Both the position numbers and the translations under genes were made by a program. This document shows positions 1 to 29,334 of a DNA stretch of 64,000 bases, one piece after another. Every line of letters starts with the position of its first letter. The stretch's first letter is position 1. This DNA is from Parvibaculum indicum (GTDB taxonomy: Bacteria > Pseudomonadota > Alphaproteobacteria > Parvibaculales > Parvibaculaceae). Below the pieces are notes generated by a model. That model worked only from the letters and a program-made list of their open reading frames with translations, was not told the DNA's origin and made no database searches. The DNA is taken from positions 124,001-188,000 of the forward strand of contig NZ_JAASQO010000002.1 of the NCBI RefSeq assembly GCF_011762095.1. The letters run 5' to 3'.

Positions 1-25
1 TCAGATTACGGTATTTCTTCGCCAT
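1..25 (-). CDS. Start of DGR reverse transcriptase (cut by window edge)
   Basis: Only the first eight codons are inside the window, read leftwards from ATG at 25-23, giving MAKKYRNL. A GAGG lies about 10 bases upstream of the ATG. DGR reverse transcriptases often begin with a short basic stretch like this. The position, directly after the template repeat and in the same direction as avd and the variable protein gene, is where the RT sits in the Bordetella BPP-1 type order (variable protein, avd, TR, RT). The catalytic domain cannot be seen, so the call rests on context and this N-terminus. Confidence 0.65.
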
Positions 26-169
26 GGTAATTGCCAGCCTCGGGTTTCGATGGGCTACTCCCCGTTCTGCCGGACCTCGCAATGTATTCGCCGAAGCAGG
101 TTGAGTGGGCTGACCACCATTGGTGATCGGCCTGCGCGGCCGTGACCGACGCAGAGCAGAAATTCGATC

Positions 170-290
170 GTCACAGCGGCCGCGCGACCCGACATTGTTG
201 TTCGAGTTCCAGGGCTGGTTGTTCCAGTTCGACGCGCGCGAACCGCAGTTCGAGCCGTTGTTCCAGTTGCCCCCGAATAGTGACGCGGCA
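170..290 (-). repeat. DGR template repeat (TR)
   Basis: This 121-bp segment is repeated, with 9 mismatches, at 728-848 inside the 3' end of the variable protein gene. Read on the minus strand, eight of the nine mismatches fall at adenines of this copy (plus-strand T at 195, 196, 198, 228, 250, 261, 262, 268). The ninth, at 279, is a coding-strand T to G change. The TR is rich in AAC/AAT codons in the frame of the variable protein. It starts 13 bases after the avd stop and ends about 145 bases before the RT start. Confidence 0.93.
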
Positions 291-303
291 CACTTCACCC
301 CGC

Positions 304-636
304 TCAACCCCTACTCTTCACAGTCTTTATCCACGCCCCGAGCATTCGGCCGATCTCGGCCAAATGGATCGATGCCACACGATGTTGGTGTGGCGTGATG
401 AGACGGCGCGAGGGAGCGGCCATGAAGCGCAGCCAGAACCGCAGATACGCCAGATTGGCGTCTGCGGAATAAAGACGGGAAGCCTGCTTCGACTTTCCCG
501 CAGCAATGAGAAGCTCGACCTGCCCGAACAGCGAAGTCAGTGCAGCATCGCGGGCGACACCGTGCTTTCGTGGAACATTTTGCAGGATCGGGTAGAGGTA
601 ATCGATTAAACGCTCCAGCTTTTCCACGATTGCCAT
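304..636 (-). CDS. avd: Avd, DGR accessory variability determinant
   Basis: The 110-residue product is a small, basic, mostly helical protein. It has an early LYP motif (IDYLYPIL) and the C-terminal signature RFWLRFMA ... HLAEIGRMLGAWIKT, both typical of the Avd four-helix-bundle family. In characterised DGRs, Avd forms a pentamer that binds the reverse transcriptase and TR RNA and is needed for mutagenic retrohoming. I chose ATG 636 because it starts just before the first family-like helix and has GAGG upstream. An in-frame ATG at 717 overlaps the stop of the variable protein gene and is an alternative. The gene lies between the variable protein gene and the TR. Confidence 0.88.
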   Translation of the reverse strand: MAIVEKLERLIDYLYPILQNVPRKHGVARDAALTSLFGQVELLIAAGKSKQASRLYSADANLAYLRFWLRFMAAPSRRLITPHQHRVASIHLAEIGRMLGAWIKTVKSRG

Positions 637-689
637 CGCCTCGCTTGAGACAATGACGTCACGCTCTATGTTCGTTCGCGCCGCTGCCC

Positions 690-705
690 CGGCGCTTTCG
701 CGCCG
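690..705 (-). other. DGR target-site hairpin downstream of VR
   Basis: On the minus strand the sequence is CGGCGC, GAAA, GCGCCG: a perfect 6-bp stem with a GAAA tetraloop, 22 bases past the end of the VR and just after the variable protein stop codon. In the Bordetella phage DGR a hairpin or cruciform with a GRNA tetraloop at this place is required for efficient retrohoming. That the element works the same way here is inference from position and shape. Confidence 0.7.
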
Positions 706-709
706 TGGA

Positions 710-1777
710 CTAGACATTAAACAGGTGGTCACAGCGGCCGCGCGACCCGACAACGCTGTTCGAGTTCCAGGGCTGGTTGTTCCAGGTCGACGCGCGCGAA
801 CCGCAGTCCGAGCCGTTGGCCCAGTAGCCCCCGAATCGTGACGCGGCAATTCCGGCCGTTGTCTGTGTGTAAAGCTTGCCTCGGCCCTCAGTGCTGTCCT
901 TCCAGCTATACGCATTTATGTCATCTGCAAGAGCGGCGGCGTCGACCGGAGTCGCGCCGACTGTCAGCCTGCTGATGAGATCACGACCCCACACATACAT
1001 GCAGCCAGTCGCCTGAACAATCCCCCACTTTGAAGTGAACTTCTCGTCGGCATTCGACGAACCTGCGTTGCTGTTCCCAAGGCCTGTGGACACCGGATCA
1101 TTGCCCCGTCCGACTGACTCTGTGGTTCCGTGGGCGGCAGCCATGAACTCACCATAGTCGAGCAAATCCTTTCCGACCGAGTTCAGCAGCTCCCGCGCTT
1201 CGAACCATGTGAGCGATCCGTAGGCGGTCGAACCATTGCCACCGAACATGGCCGGCACTTTCGGTGGCGAGGAACCATCGGCAATCGTCACGCCGTTTCT
1301 GGATGAGCCGTTCACGTCCACATCTGTGCCTGTGAGGTAGATGTCGCACCAGAAACGATCCGCGACGAATGCCATGCCTCGCGGATCAGGACAGGCCGGA
1401 CGCCATTTCAAATCCCACAAGCTGTATGGGTTGATCTGGGGGGTCGTATCGCCACCAGCCTGGGCCGGCGCATTTCCGCCGGGTGCGTAGTGAAAGCCTC
1501 CGATCCGTGTTGATGTAATGTTTGTGTAGCCGGCCGGTGCGCTGAAATTGGCCGAAGCCTGCAACGTGCCGTCGGAGCAAGCGTAAATCGCATAGTCGGT
1601 TCCTGCTGTGAGCGCCGGAAGAACCACCGCCACGCCGGACACGAACTTCCGAAGCATGCCATCAACAGTCGCGCGGATATCTTGATTGAGCGATACCGCC
1701 TGCGCTGTGGCAGAAAAGCAGACTTTTAACGGATCGGTTTTTTGCAGGGCACTCAGCAGGCCGAGGGCGATATCCAT
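710..1777 (-). CDS. DGR variable protein with C-type-lectin-like C-terminus
   Basis: The protein has 355 residues. The N-terminal third is a tail-like or low-complexity region. From about residue 115 it has features of the C-type-lectin/formylglycine-generating-enzyme fold used by Mtd-like DGR targets (SLWDLKWRP, PRGMAFV..FWCDIYL, LTWFEARELL, YGEFMAAAHGTTE). It ends in a GGYWANGSDCGSRAS segment that lies within the VR. Compared with the TR, residues Y318, A320, D324, T331, S341 and V342 all replace TR-encoded asparagines, which is the expected result of adenine mutagenesis. It is probably a phage tail or receptor-binding protein. The ATG at 1777 lies 1 base after the stop of the small upstream gene. 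Confidence 0.92.
   Translation of the reverse strand: MDIALGLLSALQKTDPLKVCFSATAQAVSLNQDIRATVDGMLRKFVSGVAVVLPALTAGTDYAIYACSDGTLQASANFSAPAGYTNITSTRIGGFHYAPGGNAPAQAGGDTTPQINPYSLWDLKWRPACPDPRGMAFVADRFWCDIYLTGTDVDVNGSSRNGVTIADGSSPPKVPAMFGGNGSTAYGSLTWFEARELLNSVGKDLLDYGEFMAAAHGTTESVGRGNDPVSTGLGNSNAGSSNADEKFTSKWGIVQATGCMYVWGRDLISRLTVGATPVDAAALADDINAYSWKDSTEGRGKLYTQTTAGIAASRFGGYWANGSDCGSRASTWNNQPWNSNSVVGSRGRCDHLFNV
728..848 (-). repeat. DGR variable repeat (VR)
   Basis: This copy of the template repeat forms codons ~311-350 of the variable protein. Its 3' part in coding direction is the GC-rich stretch GGGTCGCGCGGCCGC, identical in the TR, which fits the initiation-of-mutagenic-homing region. Substitutions relative to the TR lie upstream of this stretch. 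The pattern of adenine-specific change shows that the cassette has acted at least once on this lineage. Confidence 0.93.
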
Positions 1778-1778
1778 A

Positions 1779-1925
1779 TCAAATCTCCATGTAGACGGGC
1801 TTTCCGTCGAGCGTTAGCCATGTGCCATCAATCGACACGCGCTCGACGAGGATGCCGTTGATGCGGCGGCGGAGAGAAAGGATATTTCTCAGATTTCCAC
1901 TACTTCTGAGCCCAAGCGACCGCAT
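1779..1925 (-). CDS. Small phage protein, unknown
   Basis: A 48-residue basic protein. Its ATG (1925-1923) shares one base with the stop of the upstream gene (TGATG), and its stop lies 1 base before the variable protein ATG, so all three are probably translated together. I recognise no domain. The coupling makes a tail-fibre accessory or chaperone role possible, but this is only positional inference. Confidence 0.6.
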   Translation of the reverse strand: MRSLGLRSSGNLRNILSLRRRINGILVERVSIDGTWLTLDGKPVYMEI

Positions 1926-2293
1926 CAGCCCTCCCACCTCGCCGCGACGGTAACCTGCGTATCGCTCTCGTCGGTCCGCCTGATCTCGATCCGGTCGCAG
2001 TTGTCGATGCCGAAGATCGTGAAATTCGTCTGGTCGAACACGGGCACCGCGACGCCGTCGCCGTCCTGACGGAACTCGATGGTCGTGCCGGTATTGTTGA
2101 CGAGCGTCAGTTGCTTGCACGCCCGATCGGCAAAGGCCGTCCAGTCGGTGCCGGTCGCATTGGTCTGCGCGGCGATGTTGCCGCCCGTCGCCATCTGCGG
2201 GATGGTGGCAAGATTGCCCTGATCGTCGACATTGGCCGCATTCTCACCGATGCCCGGCGAGACGATCTGCACTGCGGAACCTGGATTTCCCAT
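1925..2293 (-). CDS. Small phage structural-type protein, unknown
   Basis: A 122-residue protein starting MGNPGSAVQIVSPGIGEN, with a beta-rich C-terminal half (LTLVNNTGTTIEFRQDG ... DRIEIRRTDE). It directly follows the large terminase gene, sharing its end, and precedes the DGR variable protein. In many phages the gene after the terminase is a head-tail connector, but this one does not look like gpW. It could be a tail or spike partner of the variable protein. No family assigned. Confidence 0.7.
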   Translation of the reverse strand: MGNPGSAVQIVSPGIGENAANVDDQGNLATIPQMATGGNIAAQTNATGTDWTAFADRACKQLTLVNNTGTTIEFRQDGDGVAVPVFDQTNFTIFGIDNCDRIEIRRTDESDTQVTVAARWEG

Positions 2294-4506
2294 TACCTGC
2301 CAATCCTCGAAAGATAGCTGGAGCGCCCGACCTTACGCTTCTTCGTCTTCGGCTTCTGGTCCGGTTTTTCCTGCGCGGGCGGCTGCGGCTTGTTCGCCTC
2401 GATGCGCTGCGCTTCGGACGTGCCTACCTTGACGACGGGCGTTTCCTCAGCTGCGCCGACCTTCTCGGCTTCGCGGTCGATGTCGATCTTGTGTTGCACG
2501 ATCAACCCCCAGAGTGCGGCATAGGCATAGACCCGGCAGTCCAGCGCTTCATGCGACTGGTCCCGCTTCCCTTCCCAGATGCGATAGGTCCGGCCCGCGC
2601 GCTTCTTCGTAACCAGCCTCTCGCCGGTCAATTGTGCGAAATACCCGGCATCGCGATCCGCCGGGAAATGCATGTATCCCCTGCCCGGCACCTCGATCTG
2701 CAGGCAGGACGATATGCGGTCCTTCGCGGCGTTCGTGCCGATGATGAAGGGCTTGTAGTCCCTCTTGCGCGAGCTTTTCCGCGTGGCGCGTCCGGACGGC
2801 CAGACCGGCGACCGGTTGCCGGACGTCTCGCTGTCGCCCTTGATCGCCCAGACCTTGCGCAACCGCCGCGCGCGGCAGAAGGCATAGACCGATTGCGTTC
2901 TGTGGCCGCCCGAGTCGACGCAGGTCGCGGCGACGGTAAACGGCCGCCCGTCCGCCCTCACGAAGGAGGACATCAGAATGGCGTCCAGACGCTCCCAGAC
3001 ATCGTCCTGATCCGGGTCGCCCTCGAGGACGCCATAGGCCAGCGACCAGGACTCCTCGCCCCGGCCCCAACCGACGATCTCGAACTCCAGCCGGTCGTCC
3101 TGCGTATCCACGCCGCAGGTGATGATGGCGACGCCGTCCGGCACCTGAGCGGCCCAGACCTCGCGCCGCTCCAGCAGCTTTTCCTGCTTGACCTCGCGAC
3201 CGATGCGCGGCCGGTAAGGCAATCCAAGCTGGGTGTTCCACCACGCCTGAAGCGCCTCGTCATTCCCCTGGGCGTCGATCCATTTCTTGGCAATGTTCCT
3301 CGGCTGATCTCGCGTCCACGGACTGAACAGCTTCGAGGAATGGAAGCTGGCATGTTCGTTATCGACGCCCCAGCTCCCGCAATCCGGGCACTTGGCGCGA
3401 CCGACCGCCCATCTGGGGCCCTCCCACCAGTCCCATATCTTGCCGACAGGATCTTCCGCACCCTCGCGCCATGCCTTTTCATAGGCATCGAGCGGAGAGT
3501 GAGTGCGTCCGCAGCAGGTGAAGGGCCTCGTCTGGTAGTAGCGCATCGTGCGCAGCGCCATGAGGCGCGCGCCTTCGGACCATCCTTCGCCGCAGGCCTC
3601 GCAATAGATGCGCGCCGTATGCGTCAGATGTTCGACGGTCTCGCCGCGGTCGTTCTTGACCTTGTCCCAGTCCACATGGCGAAAGAAATCGAGAAACTGC
3701 CTGTGCCCGCAATGTGGGCAGCTAACGGCAGCCTTTCGCTGATCGCCGTCGGCGTGGCTTTCCTCGATCCGGCTTTCGTCTTCGACCGTCGGCGAACAAA
3801 CGCGGATCGACAGCCAGTTGACGAAGGACGCCATGCGCTCGTCGCCAAGCGATATCGGATCGCCTTCGCGCGTGACCGGGTATTTGTCGATCTCGTCATA
3901 GAGAACGAGGCGCACCGGGCGACGAGCAAGGTTGTCCGGGCTACCGGCGCCGACCAGGGCGAGAAAGCCGCCCGGGAACTGATGAAAGGTCAACGTATTT
4001 TCCGGCTCGATGCCGGATGCTTCCTCACGGGCCCTTTCCGCCCTCGTTTTCCTGCGCTGTTTTCTGTTCGGCGTGATGAGTTGCCGAAGGACGGGAGTGG
4101 CCTTGATGAGCGGGATGATCCGCTCCTTCGAGAACTGTTCCGCCGCGTCATCTTTCGGCTGCACGAAAAGCATCGGCGCCGGGTCGAGATGAGCGTGAAA
4201 CCCGAAGACGTTGTTGATGAATTCCGTCTTCAAGAGCTGTGTGCATGCCATCAGGGTGATGATGTGCACACCCGGTTCGGTGACCGCCAGCATCGGGCCG
4301 CGCGCGGCCTCTACTGTGGAAGTATCCCAGTCGCCGCCCCGGCTTCCGCTTTCCTTCGCCAGCTTGCGGTATTTGTCGGCCCAGTCCGGCAGGCTGATCC
4401 GGGGCGGCGGCATCCAGCCGCGCTGCCAGGCCAGTCTCAGCCTATCCAGCTTCTCCTGCTGCGTCGGTATTCTGACCGCCGAGCTTTTCGAGGATGGACT
4501 GGACAT
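2293..4506 (-). CDS. Phage terminase large subunit, GpA family
   Basis: This 737-residue protein is the packaging motor and nuclease that cuts concatemers and pumps DNA into the procapsid. It has the GpA-type N-terminus (SLPDWADKYRKL), a deviant Walker A region near residue 90 (CTQLLKTE), a Walker B segment near residue 200 (RLVLYDEIDKYP), several CxxC pairs in the middle and the nuclease-domain start GVDTQDDRLEFEIVGW near residue 460. Length and order fit lambda-like GpA proteins. The start overlaps the end of the small terminase gene by 65 bases. Confidence 0.95.
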   Translation of the reverse strand: MSSPSSKSSAVRIPTQQEKLDRLRLAWQRGWMPPPRISLPDWADKYRKLAKESGSRGGDWDTSTVEAARGPMLAVTEPGVHIITLMACTQLLKTEFINNVFGFHAHLDPAPMLFVQPKDDAAEQFSKERIIPLIKATPVLRQLITPNRKQRRKTRAERAREEASGIEPENTLTFHQFPGGFLALVGAGSPDNLARRPVRLVLYDEIDKYPVTREGDPISLGDERMASFVNWLSIRVCSPTVEDESRIEESHADGDQRKAAVSCPHCGHRQFLDFFRHVDWDKVKNDRGETVEHLTHTARIYCEACGEGWSEGARLMALRTMRYYQTRPFTCCGRTHSPLDAYEKAWREGAEDPVGKIWDWWEGPRWAVGRAKCPDCGSWGVDNEHASFHSSKLFSPWTRDQPRNIAKKWIDAQGNDEALQAWWNTQLGLPYRPRIGREVKQEKLLERREVWAAQVPDGVAIITCGVDTQDDRLEFEIVGWGRGEESWSLAYGVLEGDPDQDDVWERLDAILMSSFVRADGRPFTVAATCVDSGGHRTQSVYAFCRARRLRKVWAIKGDSETSGNRSPVWPSGRATRKSSRKRDYKPFIIGTNAAKDRISSCLQIEVPGRGYMHFPADRDAGYFAQLTGERLVTKKRAGRTYRIWEGKRDQSHEALDCRVYAYAALWGLIVQHKIDIDREAEKVGAAEETPVVKVGTSEAQRIEANKPQPPAQEKPDQKPKTKKRKVGRSSYLSRIGR

Positions 4507-5095
4507 ATTTTGTCAGGAGCTCAACGACCTTGTCGGCCTCGACATCGAGTTCGGCCGCAATGATCGGTCCGACCCTTGTCGGCCAATCCATCAATGCATC
4601 GCGCGCGGCGCGCGACACCTCGAAAAACAGTTTCTCGGACGCCTCGAGTTCGACCAGTGACCCGGCGCGTTCCCGCATATCGAGAACGTGCTTCAGCGCG
4701 ATCTGGTTTTCCTTGATCCGCTCGGCATGTGCGTAGGGCAGATGCCGCCCGGAAAGAATGTCGTCGATGAGCTGGTCGGTATCCTGAATGAGGATATCGA
4801 GAGGCTTCTCTTTTCCGTCTGGATCAACCGCGGTGACGGGCGCTTGTCCACCCTTCGGCGAGCCATTGCGCGGCGCCCTGGCGTTCTTCTCGCTGTTACC
4901 CTTTCCGCCCGAGGTAACAGTACCGGTGCCCTTGCCAAAACGCCCCAGTCCACGGCCTTTCAGAACCGCGTCCGTCGCCTCGACATCGACCTTACCCTCT
5001 GAAATGACGAGATAATCCGCGTCCTTCCATTTCGTTACCGTCTTTCGGGAAACGCCATGAAGCTTCGCGTATTCGGCCTGCGTGACGAGGGTCAC
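4442..5095 (-). CDS. Phage terminase small subunit (Nu1-like)
   Basis: A 217-residue protein with an N-terminal winged-helix-like DNA-binding segment (LVTQAEYAKLHGVSRKTVTKWK, near residues 3-24), as in Nu1-type small terminases that recognise the packaging site. A basic, glycine-rich linker and a helical C-terminal half follow. It sits directly upstream of the GpA gene and overlaps it. GTTACC repeats in and just before the gene are candidate recognition sites. Confidence 0.85.
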   Translation of the reverse strand: MTLVTQAEYAKLHGVSRKTVTKWKDADYLVISEGKVDVEATDAVLKGRGLGRFGKGTGTVTSGGKGNSEKNARAPRNGSPKGGQAPVTAVDPDGKEKPLDILIQDTDQLIDDILSGRHLPYAHAERIKENQIALKHVLDMRERAGSLVELEASEKLFFEVSRAARDALMDWPTRVGPIIAAELDVEADKVVELLTKYVQSILEKLGGQNTDAAGEAG

Positions 5096-10877: not shown

Positions 10878-11110
10878 GTGCGCCTCCGGATCGCGAAGCG
10901 GCCGCAGAGCGCTTCTATCTGGGGCGTTTTTCCGTCGGGCAGCAGAGCGAGCTTGCCGTTTTCATCGGTTTTGTACTTCCGGAGCCAACCGGCGATTGTG
11001 TCCACCTCGACCACATAGTCGATGACGTTTCCGGTCTGGATATCCACAACCTCGATGTTGGTCCAATCCTCCGGCGGTCCACCCGCTTTGGCGTAGGTGA
11101 TATCGGTCAT
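10874..11110 (-). CDS. Small phage protein, unknown
   Basis: A 78-residue protein (MTDITYAKAGGPPEDWTNIE ...) with a beta-rich middle (VVDIQTGNVIDYVVEVD) and a C-terminal RFAIRRRT. ATGA overlaps at both ends link it to the methyltransferase-like gene and the helicase. No domain recognised. Confidence 0.72.
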   Translation of the reverse strand: MTDITYAKAGGPPEDWTNIEVVDIQTGNVIDYVVEVDTIAGWLRKYKTDENGKLALLPDGKTPQIEALCGRFAIRRRT

Positions 11111-12819
11111 GCCACGGCCTCCCGCAGGGCATATCCACCCCACTGAGATGCAATCGCCGCGGCCATGCCGGGATATGTCTTGCTCCGCTCCTTCCAGCGA
11201 TCCGGGCTCGGCGAGGCGCGGTGCACACCCGACCACTGCGCATGTTCCTTCGTGCCAGACGCAGGCGGCTCCAGTTTGTTCGTCGGGACAAGACGCGGGA
11301 GTCCTTCCAGATAGAAGTTCGTCGCCTTGAAGGCCGGTTCCCCGAACCACCATGGCTGAACCGTCTGTCGCGCATCATCAGAGTAGTTGTCGATCAGCGC
11401 CTTTGCGTGCCGGTGCATGACCGGGTTTTCTACCCCCTTGCGGGGGATGTCAGCGTTCCAGCACTTCGAGAAAAGGTCCGCGCCATCCCGAAGCTCGCTC
11501 CACATGAACGCCAGCCGCTCGTCCCGATCCATGGCTGCGTAAGCGGCGATCTTGTCGGCCCCGTAGTGCCCGGCCGTCAGACGCTTGGGTGGCTCGTGCA
11601 GCCATCGCACCCCTGAATTGCAAAGCCTCGTACAGTTGTGGACGATCACGCCGTTCGCGGTGTAGGTCTCATCCTCTTCGACCGAGAGGTTAAAAACGAC
11701 GGCCTGCTGAAGCTTATGGATGACGGATCGGACGTGCCCCCACGCGTAATCTCCATCTACGTAATTTCTTAGACGCTCATTCGCGTTTCCTATGCTGATG
11801 CTGATTGAAGGCCTTTGGCGTACCGTGCGCCCTTGGATTTCGACGGTAGGATTCCTTTCGAAGATGCCCAACCTTGGGCATTTGTCGTAGACACGCTGCA
11901 TGAGAATAGCGATGCCAAGCGCCAACCGCGGCGAAACGGTCGCTGCGGATGTATCCCGTTCGCGGATATAGCCATCCCCGCTCAGGTAACCCTGAAGAAA
12001 CGCTATGGCCTGCTGTTTGGGCAGCTCCATGACCCATACAGGAAGAGTCTTTTTGTGTGCGTATAGCCCGAATTGCGCAAAATCCTTGATTGCGTCATGG
12101 CCGTAGAAAGTCGCTCGGTAGGCTGTGCCGTTCCACCTAATGCTACATTTGCGAGGGCAGACCCGCTTGAATTCCTCAAACTCATGTGCTCCCACCGCAA
12201 GGTTCATCTCCTCCCACTTGCCGTCAGTCCAGCGGCTGCGACGCATGTGGCCGTCAGCCACGTATCGCCCCATCAGCCATAGGTCGTCGTCGCTGATGTT
12301 AACGGCCGTAGTGGGTGGCAGGACCGATCCGACGAAGTGGCGCGTCGAAAGGGCTCCAGCTTGAATGAACTCTGCCGGCCCGTCTCGCTCCTTCAGGGAG
12401 CGGAAACCATGCGCGCATGGCGCTCGGAAGCGGGCATAGAACGGATGTTCTGGCGTGGTCGTAATGGGGAGCGCATTAGTCGCCTTGAGGGCCAGAAGAT
12501 CATTGGTGCTTTTGTTCATCGTCTCTGTGACACGGCGCCACCGGCCGCGATGCGTAAGAACAAGGTCTCCAACAACAACATCCTCAATCGGAATATGCCC
12601 CCGTTTCGTCAACACGAGGGTACCGGCGACAAAACACGGAGGATGAAAGACAGCGAGCAGATCCCAGCCATCGTCGAGATAGTCGCGCACATCGCCGATG
12701 ATGTGCCGATTGCTCATATCCTCCGAGGGCAGCAGGTCTACCGACCAAACGTCGTGACCCAGCGCCGCGAACGCACGACGCACAATGCCAGATTGCTCAC
12801 ATCCGACGAGTATCTTCAC
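11107..12819 (-). CDS. Phage methyltransferase-like protein interrupted by an intein
   Basis: The precursor has 570 residues: N-extein 1-61, intein 62-395, C-extein 396-570. The joined exteins give a 236-residue protein starting KILVGCEQSG and containing HPP|CTRLCNSGVRWL, where the bar marks the splice point. This resembles a phage family often annotated as DNA cytosine methyltransferase, with a Rossmann-type start (CEQSGIVRRAFAALGH) and a PPC motif. I chose GTG 12819, with AGGAG 8 bases upstream, overlapping the gcrA-like stop (GTGA). The C-extein ends with a basic, aromatic segment (SPDRWKERSKTYPGM) also known from this phage family. Activity of the enzyme is not proven. Confidence 0.85.
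   Translation of the reverse strand: MKILVGCEQSGIVRRAFAALGHDVWSVDLLPSEDMSNRHIIGDVRDYLDDGWDLLAVFHPPCFVAGTLVLTKRGHIPIEDVVVGDLVLTHRGRWRRVTETMNKSTNDLLALKATNALPITTTPEHPFYARFRAPCAHGFRSLKERDGPAEFIQAGALSTRHFVGSVLPPTTAVNISDDDLWLMGRYVADGHMRRSRWTDGKWEEMNLAVGAHEFEEFKRVCPRKCSIRWNGTAYRATFYGHDAIKDFAQFGLYAHKKTLPVWVMELPKQQAIAFLQGYLSGDGYIRERDTSAATVSPRLALGIAILMQRVYDKCPRLGIFERNPTVEIQGRTVRQRPSISISIGNANERLRNYVDGDYAWGHVRSVIHKLQQAVVFNLSVEEDETYTANGVIVHNCTRLCNSGVRWLHEPPKRLTAGHYGADKIAAYAAMDRDERLAFMWSELRDGADLFSKCWNADIPRKGVENPVMHRHAKALIDNYSDDARQTVQPWWFGEPAFKATNFYLEGLPRLVPTNKLEPPASGTKEHAQWSGVHRASPSPDRWKERSKTYPGMAAAIASQWGGYALREAVA
11635..12636 (-). other. Intein with LAGLIDADG-type homing endonuclease
   Basis: 334 codons with all splicing blocks visible: Cys1 with block A (CFVAGTLVLTKRGHIPIEDV), block B (TTTPEHPFY, histidine at intein residue 64), two dodecapeptide-like motifs (LMGRYVADG at ~122-130 and FLQGYLSGDGY at ~213-223), and blocks F and G (VFNLSVEEDETY ... 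GVIVHN) with the +1 residue Cys. Both dodecapeptides keep an acidic residue (D129 and D221), so the endonuclease may be intact. It sits exactly between HPP and CT of the host protein, the most conserved spot. Confidence 0.95.
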
Positions 12820-13409
12820 CACACGAACTCCTGAGGTCCTTTCGATACGGGCCGCCTGGCCGCTTCGGCTTCCTTCCGCCGTGCCGCCCGGCGCATGCGC
12901 GTCCCGTTCGCTTCCAGCGTCCTGACCCTGTGGAAGCTGCAATAGGGCCCGTCCCCTACGCGGTCGTTCGGACAGAAATGGAAATCGGGATGCGACGGCT
13001 CCCCCATGGGGAAACGGCATTGCGCTGGCCCGCCGCCGCGCGGATCGCCCCGCAGCGCCATGACGGCCTCGGGCGCGCCTGTCGGCACCCCCTCCGGAGG
13101 AATGACAGGCTCTTCCGCCGCCTTGCGGCGCCCGGGCATTTTCGGACCCTTCGCCTCCTTCCGGGGCGCAGCCCGTCCGCGCGGCGCGGCGGGTGGCTTG
13201 CACCGGGCAGCGCGGGGATGCGCGGATTTCGACATCCACTTGCCTTCGCCGCGCCGCGACAGGCCCAAACGGTGCACCTTGCCGATGACCGCATTGCGCG
13301 TGATCCCGTCGCCCAGCGCCTTGGCGATCTGGGAGCAGCTATAGCCGTCGGCCCACATCTTGCGCAGCGCATCGATGTGCGCTTCCGTCCAGACCTTCGC
13401 TCTAGACAT
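12816..13409 (-). CDS. Phage-encoded GcrA-family regulator
   Basis: A 197-residue protein. The N-terminus (WTEAHIDALRKMWADGYSCS, then QIAKALGDGITRNAVIGKVHRLGL) is the GcrA helix-turn-helix domain. The C-terminal part keeps the cysteine/histidine cluster typical of GcrA (QCRFPMGEPSHPDFHFC ... GPYCSFHR). In Caulobacter, GcrA binds RNA polymerase sigma-70 at GANTC-methylated promoters and controls cell-cycle genes. The middle is basic and proline-rich. A phage copy could redirect host cell-cycle transcription; this is inference. It shares 4 bases with the next gene. Confidence 0.9.
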   Translation of the reverse strand: MSRAKVWTEAHIDALRKMWADGYSCSQIAKALGDGITRNAVIGKVHRLGLSRRGEGKWMSKSAHPRAARCKPPAAPRGRAAPRKEAKGPKMPGRRKAAEEPVIPPEGVPTGAPEAVMALRGDPRGGGPAQCRFPMGEPSHPDFHFCPNDRVGDGPYCSFHRVRTLEANGTRMRRAARRKEAEAARRPVSKGPQEFVW

Positions 13410-27498: not shown

Positions 27499-27676
27499 AC
27501 GGATCGACGAAATCGTAGCACGCGAAAAAAATGTGCGGCTAATGCGGCTGGAACGCCGCGCTGCGGTCGCCCTTATGTTCTTTTCTCCTGACGAGTGCTC
27601 TTGGGTCTACAGACCAAACGATGCGCCGTTCGACCCGCTACTCGGAATACAGGTCGAGGCTAGGCCTGACCCATGA
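27479..27676 (+). CDS. Small protein before the integrase
   Basis: A 65-residue helical protein (MNDRLDKRIDEIVAREKNVR ...). It overlaps the integrase gene by 4 bases (ATGA), so it is co-translated with it. It could be a recombination directionality factor, which is often a small gene next to a serine integrase, but no family match supports this. Confidence 0.55.
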   Translation: MNDRLDKRIDEIVAREKNVRLMRLERRAAVALMFFSPDECSWVYRPNDAPFDPLLGIQVEARPDP

Positions 27677-29301
27677 CCCGCGCCGTCATCTATGCCCGCT
27701 TCTCCACCGAGATGCAGCAGGAATCCTCCATCGAGGATCAGGTATCCCTCTGCCGCGCCCATGCCCGGCGCGACGGGCATGACGTCGTTGCCGTCTACAG
27801 CGATCGCGCGCGCTCCGGCGGGTCCATGTTCGGCCGCGACGGGTTGATGGACATGATGGAGGCGGCCAAGGCCGGACGGTTCGATGTCCTCGTCGTGGAA
27901 TCGCTGGACCGCCTCTCCCGCGACATGGAGGATCTGGCCGGGCTCTACAAGCGCCTGGGCTTCATGGGGATCGATATTTCCGCCGTGCATGAAGGCGTGG
28001 CCAATACGGTCACCATCGGCCTGCGCGGGCTTGTGGGGCAGCTCTACCGGGAAGACAACGCCAAGAAAATCAGGCGCGGCATGTCCGGCGTCGTGCGCGG
28101 CGGCCGCCACGCAGGCGGGCGCGCCTATGGCTATCGCGCCGTGGCAGGCGCGCCCGGAGAACTGGAAATCGACGAAGCCGAAGCCGCCATCGTGCGGCGC
28201 ATCTTTGCCGAATATGCCGCGGGCCGCGTTCCGCGCGAGATCGCAGGCGATTTGAACCGCGAGGGCATCGCCCCGCCGCGCGGGCGGCAATGGAACGCCT
28301 CCACCATCAACGGCAATGCCAGGCGCGGCAGCGGCATCGTCTTCAACGAGCTTTATGTCGGCCGCATCGTCTGGAACAAGGTCCGCATGGTCCGCCACCC
28401 GGATACGGGCCGGAAGATTTCCCGCCCCAACCCGAAAGATCAGTGGGAGTCGGCCGCCGCGCCGCATCTTCGCATCGTCGATGATGAAACCTGGGCGAAG
28501 GTCCACGAACTCAAAAGCGGGCGTGGCGGCGAGCATGTCAAAAGGGGGCGACGGGGAAGCTATCTCCTTTCCGGCCTGCTGAAATGCGGATGCTGTGGCA
28601 GCGGGCTTTCTATCCACGACTATGACAAGACAGGCAAGGCCCGTGTGCGATGTTCAGCCGTCAGGGAGAGTGGGGCCTGCTCCAACCGGCGCATCCTCTA
28701 TCTGCGCGACGTGGAAGCTGCGGTGCTGGACGGCATGCGCGCCCAGCTTCGCGATCCGCGCCTGATCGAGATTTATGTGCGGAAATACAATGAAGAGCGC
28801 CGCCGCCTCGCATCGGGCCGCGCCCAGCGCAGGATGAAGATGGAGGTCCGGCTGGGAGAAATCGCCCGCGAGATCGACCGGCTTGTGACAGCGATCGCGA
28901 AAGGCGAAATGCCGGGCGCCGTGGCAGGGCCGATGACGGCGAAGCTCGATGCGGAAAAGCAGGAACTGGAAGAGCAGCTGGGGGGCATGGAGGCCGCACC
29001 GAAGGTGGTCTCGATTCATCCCGCGACCATCGACCAGTACCTCGCCACCGTGGACCGGCTGGCGGAAACGCTGACCGATCACGCCACTGCGAAGGAAGAC
29101 AGAGGCCCGCTGATCGCCGATATGCGAAGCCTCATCCACACCGTCACCGTGCATCCGGACGGTCCGAAAGGCCCGTTCGACGTGGAAGTAAAAGGAAAGC
29201 TCGCCGCGCTCATGGAGGCCCCGGTGTTCCCGCAGGCCCGCCATAGTGGGTTTGCGGTGGTAGCGGAGGAGGGACTCGAACCCCCGACACGCGGATTATG
29301 A
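27673..29301 (+). CDS. Large serine recombinase (phage integrase)
   Basis: A 542-residue large serine recombinase. The resolvase domain has catalytic Ser11 (YARFSTEMQQESSIEDQ), the arginine-rich catalytic loop (ESLDRLSRDMEDL) and LYREDNAKKIRRGM. A recombinase domain follows (GYRAVAG..., then RIFAEYAAGRVPREIA). Next come a zinc ribbon (LLKCGCCGSGLSIHDY ... VRCSAVRESGACSN) and a coiled coil near residues 400-450. The protein ends EEGLEPPTRGL; these last codons are the 3' end of the tRNA-Met gene. Length fits the family. It drives integration and is the last gene of the rightward operon. Confidence 0.95.
   Translation: MTRAVIYARFSTEMQQESSIEDQVSLCRAHARRDGHDVVAVYSDRARSGGSMFGRDGLMDMMEAAKAGRFDVLVVESLDRLSRDMEDLAGLYKRLGFMGIDISAVHEGVANTVTIGLRGLVGQLYREDNAKKIRRGMSGVVRGGRHAGGRAYGYRAVAGAPGELEIDEAEAAIVRRIFAEYAAGRVPREIAGDLNREGIAPPRGRQWNASTINGNARRGSGIVFNELYVGRIVWNKVRMVRHPDTGRKISRPNPKDQWESAAAPHLRIVDDETWAKVHELKSGRGGEHVKRGRRGSYLLSGLLKCGCCGSGLSIHDYDKTGKARVRCSAVRESGACSNRRILYLRDVEAAVLDGMRAQLRDPRLIEIYVRKYNEERRRLASGRAQRRMKMEVRLGEIAREIDRLVTAIAKGEMPGAVAGPMTAKLDAEKQELEEQLGGMEAAPKVVSIHPATIDQYLATVDRLAETLTDHATAKEDRGPLIADMRSLIHTVTVHPDGPKGPFDVEVKGKLAALMEAPVFPQARHSGFAVVAEEGLEPPTRGL
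29258..29301. other. Prophage right attachment site inside tRNA-Met
   Basis: The last 44 bases of the integrase reading frame are identical to the 3' part of the tRNA gene (anticodon stem, variable loop, T arm, acceptor end, CCA). The tRNA 5' half lies on the host side and its 3' half on the phage side, as expected if the phage brings its own copy of the tRNA end. The matching copy at the left prophage end is off-window, so the exact core cannot be given. Confidence 0.8.
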
Positions 29302-29334
29302 TTCCGCTGCTCTAACCAGCTGAGCTACTCCGCC
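29258..29334 (-). tRNA. tRNA-Met (CAT), attachment site of the prophage
   Basis: A 77-base tRNA with encoded CCA. The acceptor arm is GGCGGAG/CTCCGCT, the D arm contains AGCTCAG, the anticodon stem is GCGGA/TCCGC with loop ATCATAA (anticodon CAT) and the T loop is GTTCGAGTC. The G1-U72 pair excludes an initiator tRNA (which has an unpaired C-A end). Elongator Met is most likely; a CAT tRNA-Ile with modified C34 cannot be excluded. Confidence 0.96.

Follow-up and report, generated by a model that had tools for sequence, protein, structure and literature searches.

The diversity-generating retroelement (DGR) of the Bordetella phage BPP-1, the best studied of its kind, comprises the gene of a variable protein (VP), mtd, followed by avd, a template repeat (TR) and the reverse transcriptase (RT) gene brt, and lies behind tail-fibre genes. 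The initiation of mutagenic homing (IMH) element of BPP-1 holds a (GC)14 run, and a hairpin with a GRNA loop behind the variable repeat (VR) is needed for efficient homing (PMC3240598). Here we describe a related element at the left end of a 64,000-nucleotide (nt) stretch of the Parvibaculum indicum genome (G000:C2:124001-188000, hereafter the window; the genome comprises 4.02 Mb in 37 contigs). It is almost certainly a DGR of the BPP-1 type in a prophage with a lambda-type head operon, and most likely works by the steps of BPP-1. A preliminary description of the window had already called it a BPP-1-type DGR in a prophage, and the RT, Avd, an Mtd-like VP, TR and VR, a candidate hairpin and the spacer RNA were all found.

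The locus shares with BPP-1 its gene order, the RT (56.6% identity to Brt across 98% of the query), Avd, an Mtd-type VP (46–47% identity to the Bordetella phage copies), a TR–RT spacer of 144 nt with its structure, a candidate GRNA hairpin behind the VR, and a small gene that overlaps the end of the RT gene (bbp4, 82 amino acids (aa) in BPP-1). By contrast, it forms part of a lambda-type head operon, its prophage has a serine recombinase, its VP leaves Mtd residues 1–54 unmatched, and its TR (121 versus 134 nt) and G/C run (11 versus 14 nt) are shorter. Mtd-type VPs with 37–40% identity to that of P. indicum also occur in Marinomonas phage P12026 and Synechococcus phages S-CBS1 and S-CBS3; however, neither an RT nor a TR match lies up to 6 kb from the VP of P12026, and none of the three phages matches the companion gene P6 described below. 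The IMG/VR locus L015 (IMGVR_UViG_3300024239_000005) resembles our element in its VP (69%), the start of avd (65%), P6 (65%), a gene like our ORF48 and a position inside a head module, whereas the end of avd, the TR and most of the RT are absent, and its terminase and portal belong to other families.

The repeats and their adenine footprint

The preliminary description had claimed a minus-strand order of C-type-lectin VP, avd, 121-nt TR and RT start, which the positions of the open reading frames (ORFs) bear out (Table 1). The RT gene begins at window position 25 and exits at the left edge, and the element therefore extends outside the window. Because an RT gene exists left of position 1, where that description had expected it, its counter-case of a locus with no RT downstream does not apply.

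Table 1. Positions of the element and its neighbours (window numbering unless prefixed)
Feature	Position	Strand	Basis or remark
Terminase small subunit, phrog_57	4442-5095		
Terminase large subunit of the lambda gpA type, bounding the block upstream	2293..4506	-	Pfam GpA_ATPase, GpA_nuclease
ORF122, 122 aa, phrog_19032 (unknown function)	1925..2293	-	E 2.3e-15
ORF48, 48 aa, directly ahead of VP	1779..1925	-	counterpart ahead of VP in L015
VP, 355 aa, Mtd-like C-type lectin without Mtd N-terminal part	710..1777	-	Pfam, phmmer, AlphaFold2 (AF2)
VR, at 3′ end of VP	728..848	-	121-nt repeat, 9 mismatches to TR, 8 at TR adenines
G/C-only run, 11 nt, near VR 3′ end	734..744 (TR counterpart 176-186)	-	read from sequence
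Inverted repeat CGGCGC[GAAA]GCGCCG, candidate hairpin/cruciform, GRNA loop	690..705	-	22 nt past VR
avd, 137 aa, Avd domain residues 28-132	304..717	-	NCBIfam, Pfam, PDB
TR, between avd and RT	170..290	-	121-nt repeat with VR
TR–RT spacer, 144 nt, putative structured part of TR-RNA	26..169	-	length, compensatory changes
RT, first codons	1..25	-	324 aa; full gene to C2:123051 (L002:11051-12025)
P6, 91 aa, bbp4 family, outside window	L002:10779-11054 (C2:122779-123054)		overlaps RT stop
Head–tail adaptor	L002:10543-10779		phrog_2545, E 1.6e-15
Serine recombinase, right prophage end	27673-29301		overlaps tRNA-Met gene 29258-29334

TR and VR form a direct repeat with 93% identity. A recount agrees with the earlier one: the repeats differ at 9 of 121 positions, and eight of these mismatches lie at TR adenines, which account for 26 of the 121 coding-strand bases (hypergeometric P for at least eight of nine, 1.3e-5). 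Likewise, six TR asparagine codons read Tyr, Ala, Asp, Thr, Ser and Val in the VR, as had been stated. No second VR was found in the genome, in which the next-best match to the TR spans 24 nt (E 0.009).

The footprint extends to the relatives. A TR is detectable in 33 of the 48 loci with a VP end, and 428 of 459 mismatches, duplicates included, fall at TR adenines; with our own pair and the duplicates removed, the remaining 29 pairs have 382 of 410 mismatches at TR adenines (759 of 3398 TR bases being adenine). Loci with identical TRs and different VRs allow the VRs to be compared directly, and the VR differences lie at TR adenines in 13 of 14 cases for L020/L031, 19 of 20 for L025/L030 and 15 of 15 for L040/L046. 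Where the TRs themselves differ at three to four positions, the counts are 17 of 20 (L026/L043, with the duplicate L027 giving the same) and 8 of 12 (L055/L056); four other contig pairs have identical VRs and are hence uninformative. From these comparisons, we infer that the relatives probably diversify in nature.

The lone non-adenine difference in our pair is a T close to the 5′ end of the repeat (TR position 12; window positions 279 and 837), which sits 5′ of the first changed adenine. In L020/L031 and L025/L030, the lone non-adenine difference between the VRs is likewise a T at the 5′ edge. The T at this edge is perhaps outside the copied tract.

Proteins and cis-acting parts

SQ in motif 4 marks the RTs of DGRs, and the preliminary description had expected it here. 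The RT (P0002) has both SQ in motif 4, as LPIGALTSQLFANVY, and a YxDD motif, YMDD, the SQ being present in LPIGALTSQLF. It matches the solved BPP-1 RT (PDB 8ub7) over 316 residues (E 2.1e-116), and group II, retron and Drt models below their cut-offs. Avd matches NCBIfam NF033474 above the cut-off (E 1.3e-33), Pfam bAvd (E 1.6e-32) and PDB 4dwl (Bbp7; E 4.3e-38). Among 98 kin genomes, nine, including our own, have RT matches at E ≤ 0.001, the best apart from our own reaching E 3.8e-10 with 30% identity, and one of 26 same-genus genomes has a match (E 2.2e-4); we take the matches other than our own for other kinds of RT. Within the class, the VP was found in our own genome only, 1 of 385 searched.

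Mtd consists of three domains, namely the N-terminal, second and C-type lectin domains. The VP matches Pfam mtd_2nd (E 9e-22) and the Mtd chains in phmmer searches (E 3.4e-90 for 1yu4 to 1.7e-87), and an AF2 model derived from 22 VPs (predicted local distance difference test (pLDDT) score 72, with much of the variable part below 50) retrieves five Mtd variants and nothing else from the PDB at E ≤ 0.001 (template-modelling score 0.82). Because the alignment begins at Mtd residue 55, the Mtd N-terminal part is absent; Mtd residues 1–54 have no counterpart in the VP, and the second and lectin parts are present. Judged by its sequence, the VP is thus a relative of Mtd and not a full Mtd. It has 11 residues ahead of the first column of the family profile, whereas all other VPs listed, counted from their farthest-upstream starts, have at least 17, except for its own copy, L082. 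When counted from the ATG aligned with ours, L015 has 10 and L014 has 19 residues ahead of the profile, and the short form therefore belongs to a small clade. ORF48, which has no Pfam or PHROGs match, and ORF122 (together window 1779-2293) precede the VP gene, and one of them may replace the missing N-terminal part, because an ORF48-like gene also stands ahead of the VP in L015.

The hairpins of phage DGRs have been described as GC-rich stems of 7–10 base pairs (bp) with a 4-nt GRNA loop, located 4–34 bp past the VR. The candidate hairpin of our element lies inside the avd ORF, ahead of the Avd domain, and its GAAA loop and 22-nt distance match this range. Stems of 5 or more perfect bp with a GRNA loop, at most 70 nt from the VP end, occur in 47 of the 66 VPs with an RT and in 3 of the 27 without, as counted after removal of nine duplicate loci, of L067, of VPs with identical ends and of loci to which no RT state could be assigned. 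The three positives without an RT are L042, which is near the RT-bearing locus L046, L128, where avd remains, and L153, with an RT remnant; several of the 19 RT-bearing misses keep the loop with an interrupted stem. The meaning of the hairpin derives from its position, its loop and the relatives. The G/C-only run occupies the place of (GC)14 in the BPP-1 IMH. An alignment of 15 spacers, including our own and that of BPP-1, from 29 loci tabulated, has compensatory changes in 17 of 25 consensus pairs, and 92.0% of its cells are paired, as compared with 76.1% in shuffled and 29–46% (maximum 46.1%) in slid alignments, the structure being derived from the same alignment on which it is scored, a bias in its favour.

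The companion gene P6 and the avd–TR–RT block

P6 overlaps the RT stop by 4 nt and is a homologue of BPP-1 bbp4 (45% identity). It was first read as lambda gpW, and comparison with BPP-1 and the relatives gave the bbp4 homologue instead, the adaptor being the next gene. Among 50,697 phage records, it matches five Bordetella records only. A profile of 22 members was scanned alone against IMG/VR, and the counts that follow concern the best 80 of the 135 confirmed loci. An RT and a VP lie upstream of P6 in 46 loci (including our own L082 and BPP-1, L148), among which L153 holds an RT remnant only; 22 have a VP and no RT (19 within 110 nt and 3 farther); 11 have RT sequence on a contig ending ahead of the VP site (10 by script, plus L100, judged too short); and one contig is too short. 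A VP or its end is thus present upstream of P6 in 68 of the 80 loci, and the contigs of the remaining 12 are too short to show one. These loci are partly non-independent, with L151/L152/L154/L156, L085/L086 and L109/L110 resembling near-copies, and L158 has the last third of a VP only. The P6 start lies 1–65 nt ahead of the RT stop codon in 76 of 76 loci and 6–90 nt past the VP stop in 23 of 23, as counted with script-chosen starts where the RT or VP end lies at most 130 nt from P6, with duplicates in and more distant cases, L015, L128 and L159 among them, excluded.

Starting from the VP, P6 is present in 27 of the 36 tree rows from L013 to L066 and absent in 3, with no call possible in 6. P6 is absent although the contig continues for over 1 kb past the VP or RT in L048, L052, L054, L059, L065 and phage P12026 (L069), and the contigs of L051, L053, L055, L056 and L068 end too early to judge. 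As VPs without P6 exist, P6 belongs to the nearer Mtd relatives and not to every VP.

The AF2 core of P6 (mean pLDDT 91.1) has no Foldseek match at E ≤ 0.001 in the PDB or BFVD, from which a new fold does not follow; the best VIA Z is 2.7. Some P6 proteins bear C-terminal extensions. In six of these scanned in Pfam, DUF4376 was found above the cut-off in one and below it in another, and of five of them searched in PHROGs, one matched a tail fibre family (2e-19) and another a family of tail fibre assembly proteins (3.2e-5), two matched families without a known function, and the last had no match. No description of the bbp4 gene was found in the open-licence PMC literature. The BPP-1 DGR has been rebuilt in Escherichia coli from avd–TR–brt and a target, in a paper whose main text does not contain the term bbp (PMC12875486). 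Since the rebuilt DGR works and this main text is without bbp, bbp4 would be dispensable for homing. We see about an even chance that P6 is an assembly or attachment factor for the VP, and not for copying.

Two further arrangements were observed. At L151:1411-4913 (also in L152 and L156, with two visible in L154), three Mtd-type VPs stand in tandem ahead of one P6, with no RT, and broken hairpin-like sequences lie behind them. At L064:6726-7547, from Herbaspirillum, the RT is matched in its first half only, and TR/VR, hairpin and P6 are present.

The avd–TR–RT block comes and goes between the VP and P6 genes. A quick tree was built from 80 VPs trimmed of their last 45 residues (55 with and 25 without an RT; SH-like approximate likelihood-ratio test (SH-aLRT) only), and on it the RT state requires 18 changes, of which the starred branches force 13. 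Shuffled RT labels give a mean of 21.5 changes, with 24 of 500 shuffles as low as 18, and the RT state therefore tracks the VP tree weakly. In L015, as read by eye, the start of avd is followed by the end of the RT, with P6 kept, which looks like a deletion. L153 (L153:3447-5000; IMGVR_UViG_2811995291_000003) is near BPP-1 by the VP tree and the hairpin, keeps avd and has an RT match of only 48 C-terminal positions; it is likely a recent loss of the DGR. Phage P12026 has a 41-residue Avd-like match behind its Mtd-type VP (L069:6930-7052) and no RT or P6, perhaps another DGR remnant. The remnants document loss of the block, and gain by insertion may also have occurred; recombination between phages could likewise produce the pattern. 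We regard it as a toss-up whether the Mtd-type VP and the bbp4-family P6 form a two-gene unit, with avd–TR–RT a removable insert lost or gained many times and P6 a factor dedicated to assembly or attachment and tolerant of a hypervariable client, in which case the DGR here would diversify a protein at a new virion site.

Prophage setting, rival readings and significance

The gene order runs from the small terminase subunit through gpA, ORF122, ORF48, VP, avd, TR, RT and P6 to the head–tail adaptor, followed by a lambda-type portal, the head maturation protease, decoration protein D and major capsid E, and, past the capsid, by head closure, neck and minor tail genes, a phrog_240 protein and a 1001-aa tape measure. 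This order places the DGR in the head operon. The corresponding IMG/VR prophage of 51,443 bp spans, by arithmetic, window positions -22141 to 29301. A blastn comparison of 1 kb at the right end with 28 kb at the left yielded no long attL/attR repeat, only matches of 11–17 nt; a serine recombinase may need just a short core. In L014, the block lies beside a tail fibre gene and near the tape measure gene, and in L015, it is flanked by portal and capsid genes from another type of phage. The prophage also encodes a 710-aa protein (window 11107-13239, minus strand) with a Hint match, and with intein-splicing and LAGLIDADG-like matches below cut-off, which perhaps holds an intein.

Several observations weigh against a working element of the BPP-1 type. 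The ninth TR/VR mismatch, a T-to-G change at TR position 12, falls outside the adenines, the VP lacks the Mtd part ahead of residue 55, and the G/C-only run has 11 nt, not 14. The hairpin stem comprises 6 perfect bp (plus 2 past one mismatch), as compared with the published 7–10 bp, and folds hardly better than shuffled sequences (z -0.87 to -1.27), and the spacer by itself shows no folding advantage over its shuffles (z -0.43; BPP-1, z -2.88). No second copy of the element was found for VR comparison; the IMG/VR prophage L013, whose DNA is identical to our own over window 1-5095 and the RT–P6 stretch, is presumably the same genome. Moreover, our VP groups with those of L014 and L015 (98, starred), both RT-less. 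The element could be a once-active DGR that is now frozen, with its parts intact but unexpressed or non-functional and the VR a relic of past homing. Such a reading accords with the two nearest VPs being RT-less (L015 keeping the start of avd and the end of the RT, and L014 neither), with the VP occurring in a single genome of the class, and with no more than 8 of 26 TR adenines being changed. We nevertheless consider it possible but unlikely: the RT and Avd genes and the TR are intact over their full length, the structure common to the spacers is preserved, and the hairpin is kept, whereas by the stem criterion above it is absent from 24 of 27 RT-less VP ends (and also from 19 of 66 RT-bearing ones).

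The site of the element raises the question of where the VP is carried. It might be a binding protein borne on the head or neck and not a tail-fibre receptor binder, given that its gene lies in a head operon extending from terminase through capsid, that it lacks the Mtd N-terminal part and that the L015 block stands between portal and capsid genes; but the BPP-1 and L014 blocks sit with tail genes, gene position is weak evidence, and a separate adaptor may hold the short VP, so that a head or neck location strikes us as rather improbable. The RT matches to group II, retron and Drt models might be read as those of a retron, group II intron or defence RT beside an ordinary duplication with chance differences. 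However, these matches are below the cut-offs, the match to the BPP-1 RT extends over 316 residues, Avd is present, and the mismatches are concentrated at adenines with the probability given above. The adenine bias and Avd therefore already contradict an ordinary duplication, which is extremely improbable.

For a DGR of the BPP-1 type, published work on BPP-1 suggests how the element would operate. A complex of RT and Avd would copy a TR-RNA with a structured spacer, with errors arising at template adenines, and the cDNA would replace the VR in the VP gene, with the G/C run and the hairpin past the VR as guides. Owing to the many AAC codons of the TR, re-randomisation would affect the binding surface of the Mtd-like C-type lectin and spare its scaffold, and the VP would, as in BPP-1, act in host recognition. 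P6 would serve the VP, in assembly or attachment, and not the copying.

The special features of the element are its head-operon site, the VP without the first part of Mtd, and the view that it affords of the VP–P6 pair. It represents a close and complete relative of the best-studied DGR in another host, and a natural variant in which both the G/C run and the VP are shorter. Of greater importance is the companion gene, as bbp4 is present in the model system itself. The linkage of P6 to the VP, and not to the RT, bears on how phages fold and mount a protein with a random binding surface, and comparing sister phages that carry the RT block with those that lack it would allow the costs and benefits of diversification to be tested. 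If the VP and P6 do form a unit of this kind, the DGR in P. indicum would diversify a protein carried at a new virion site.

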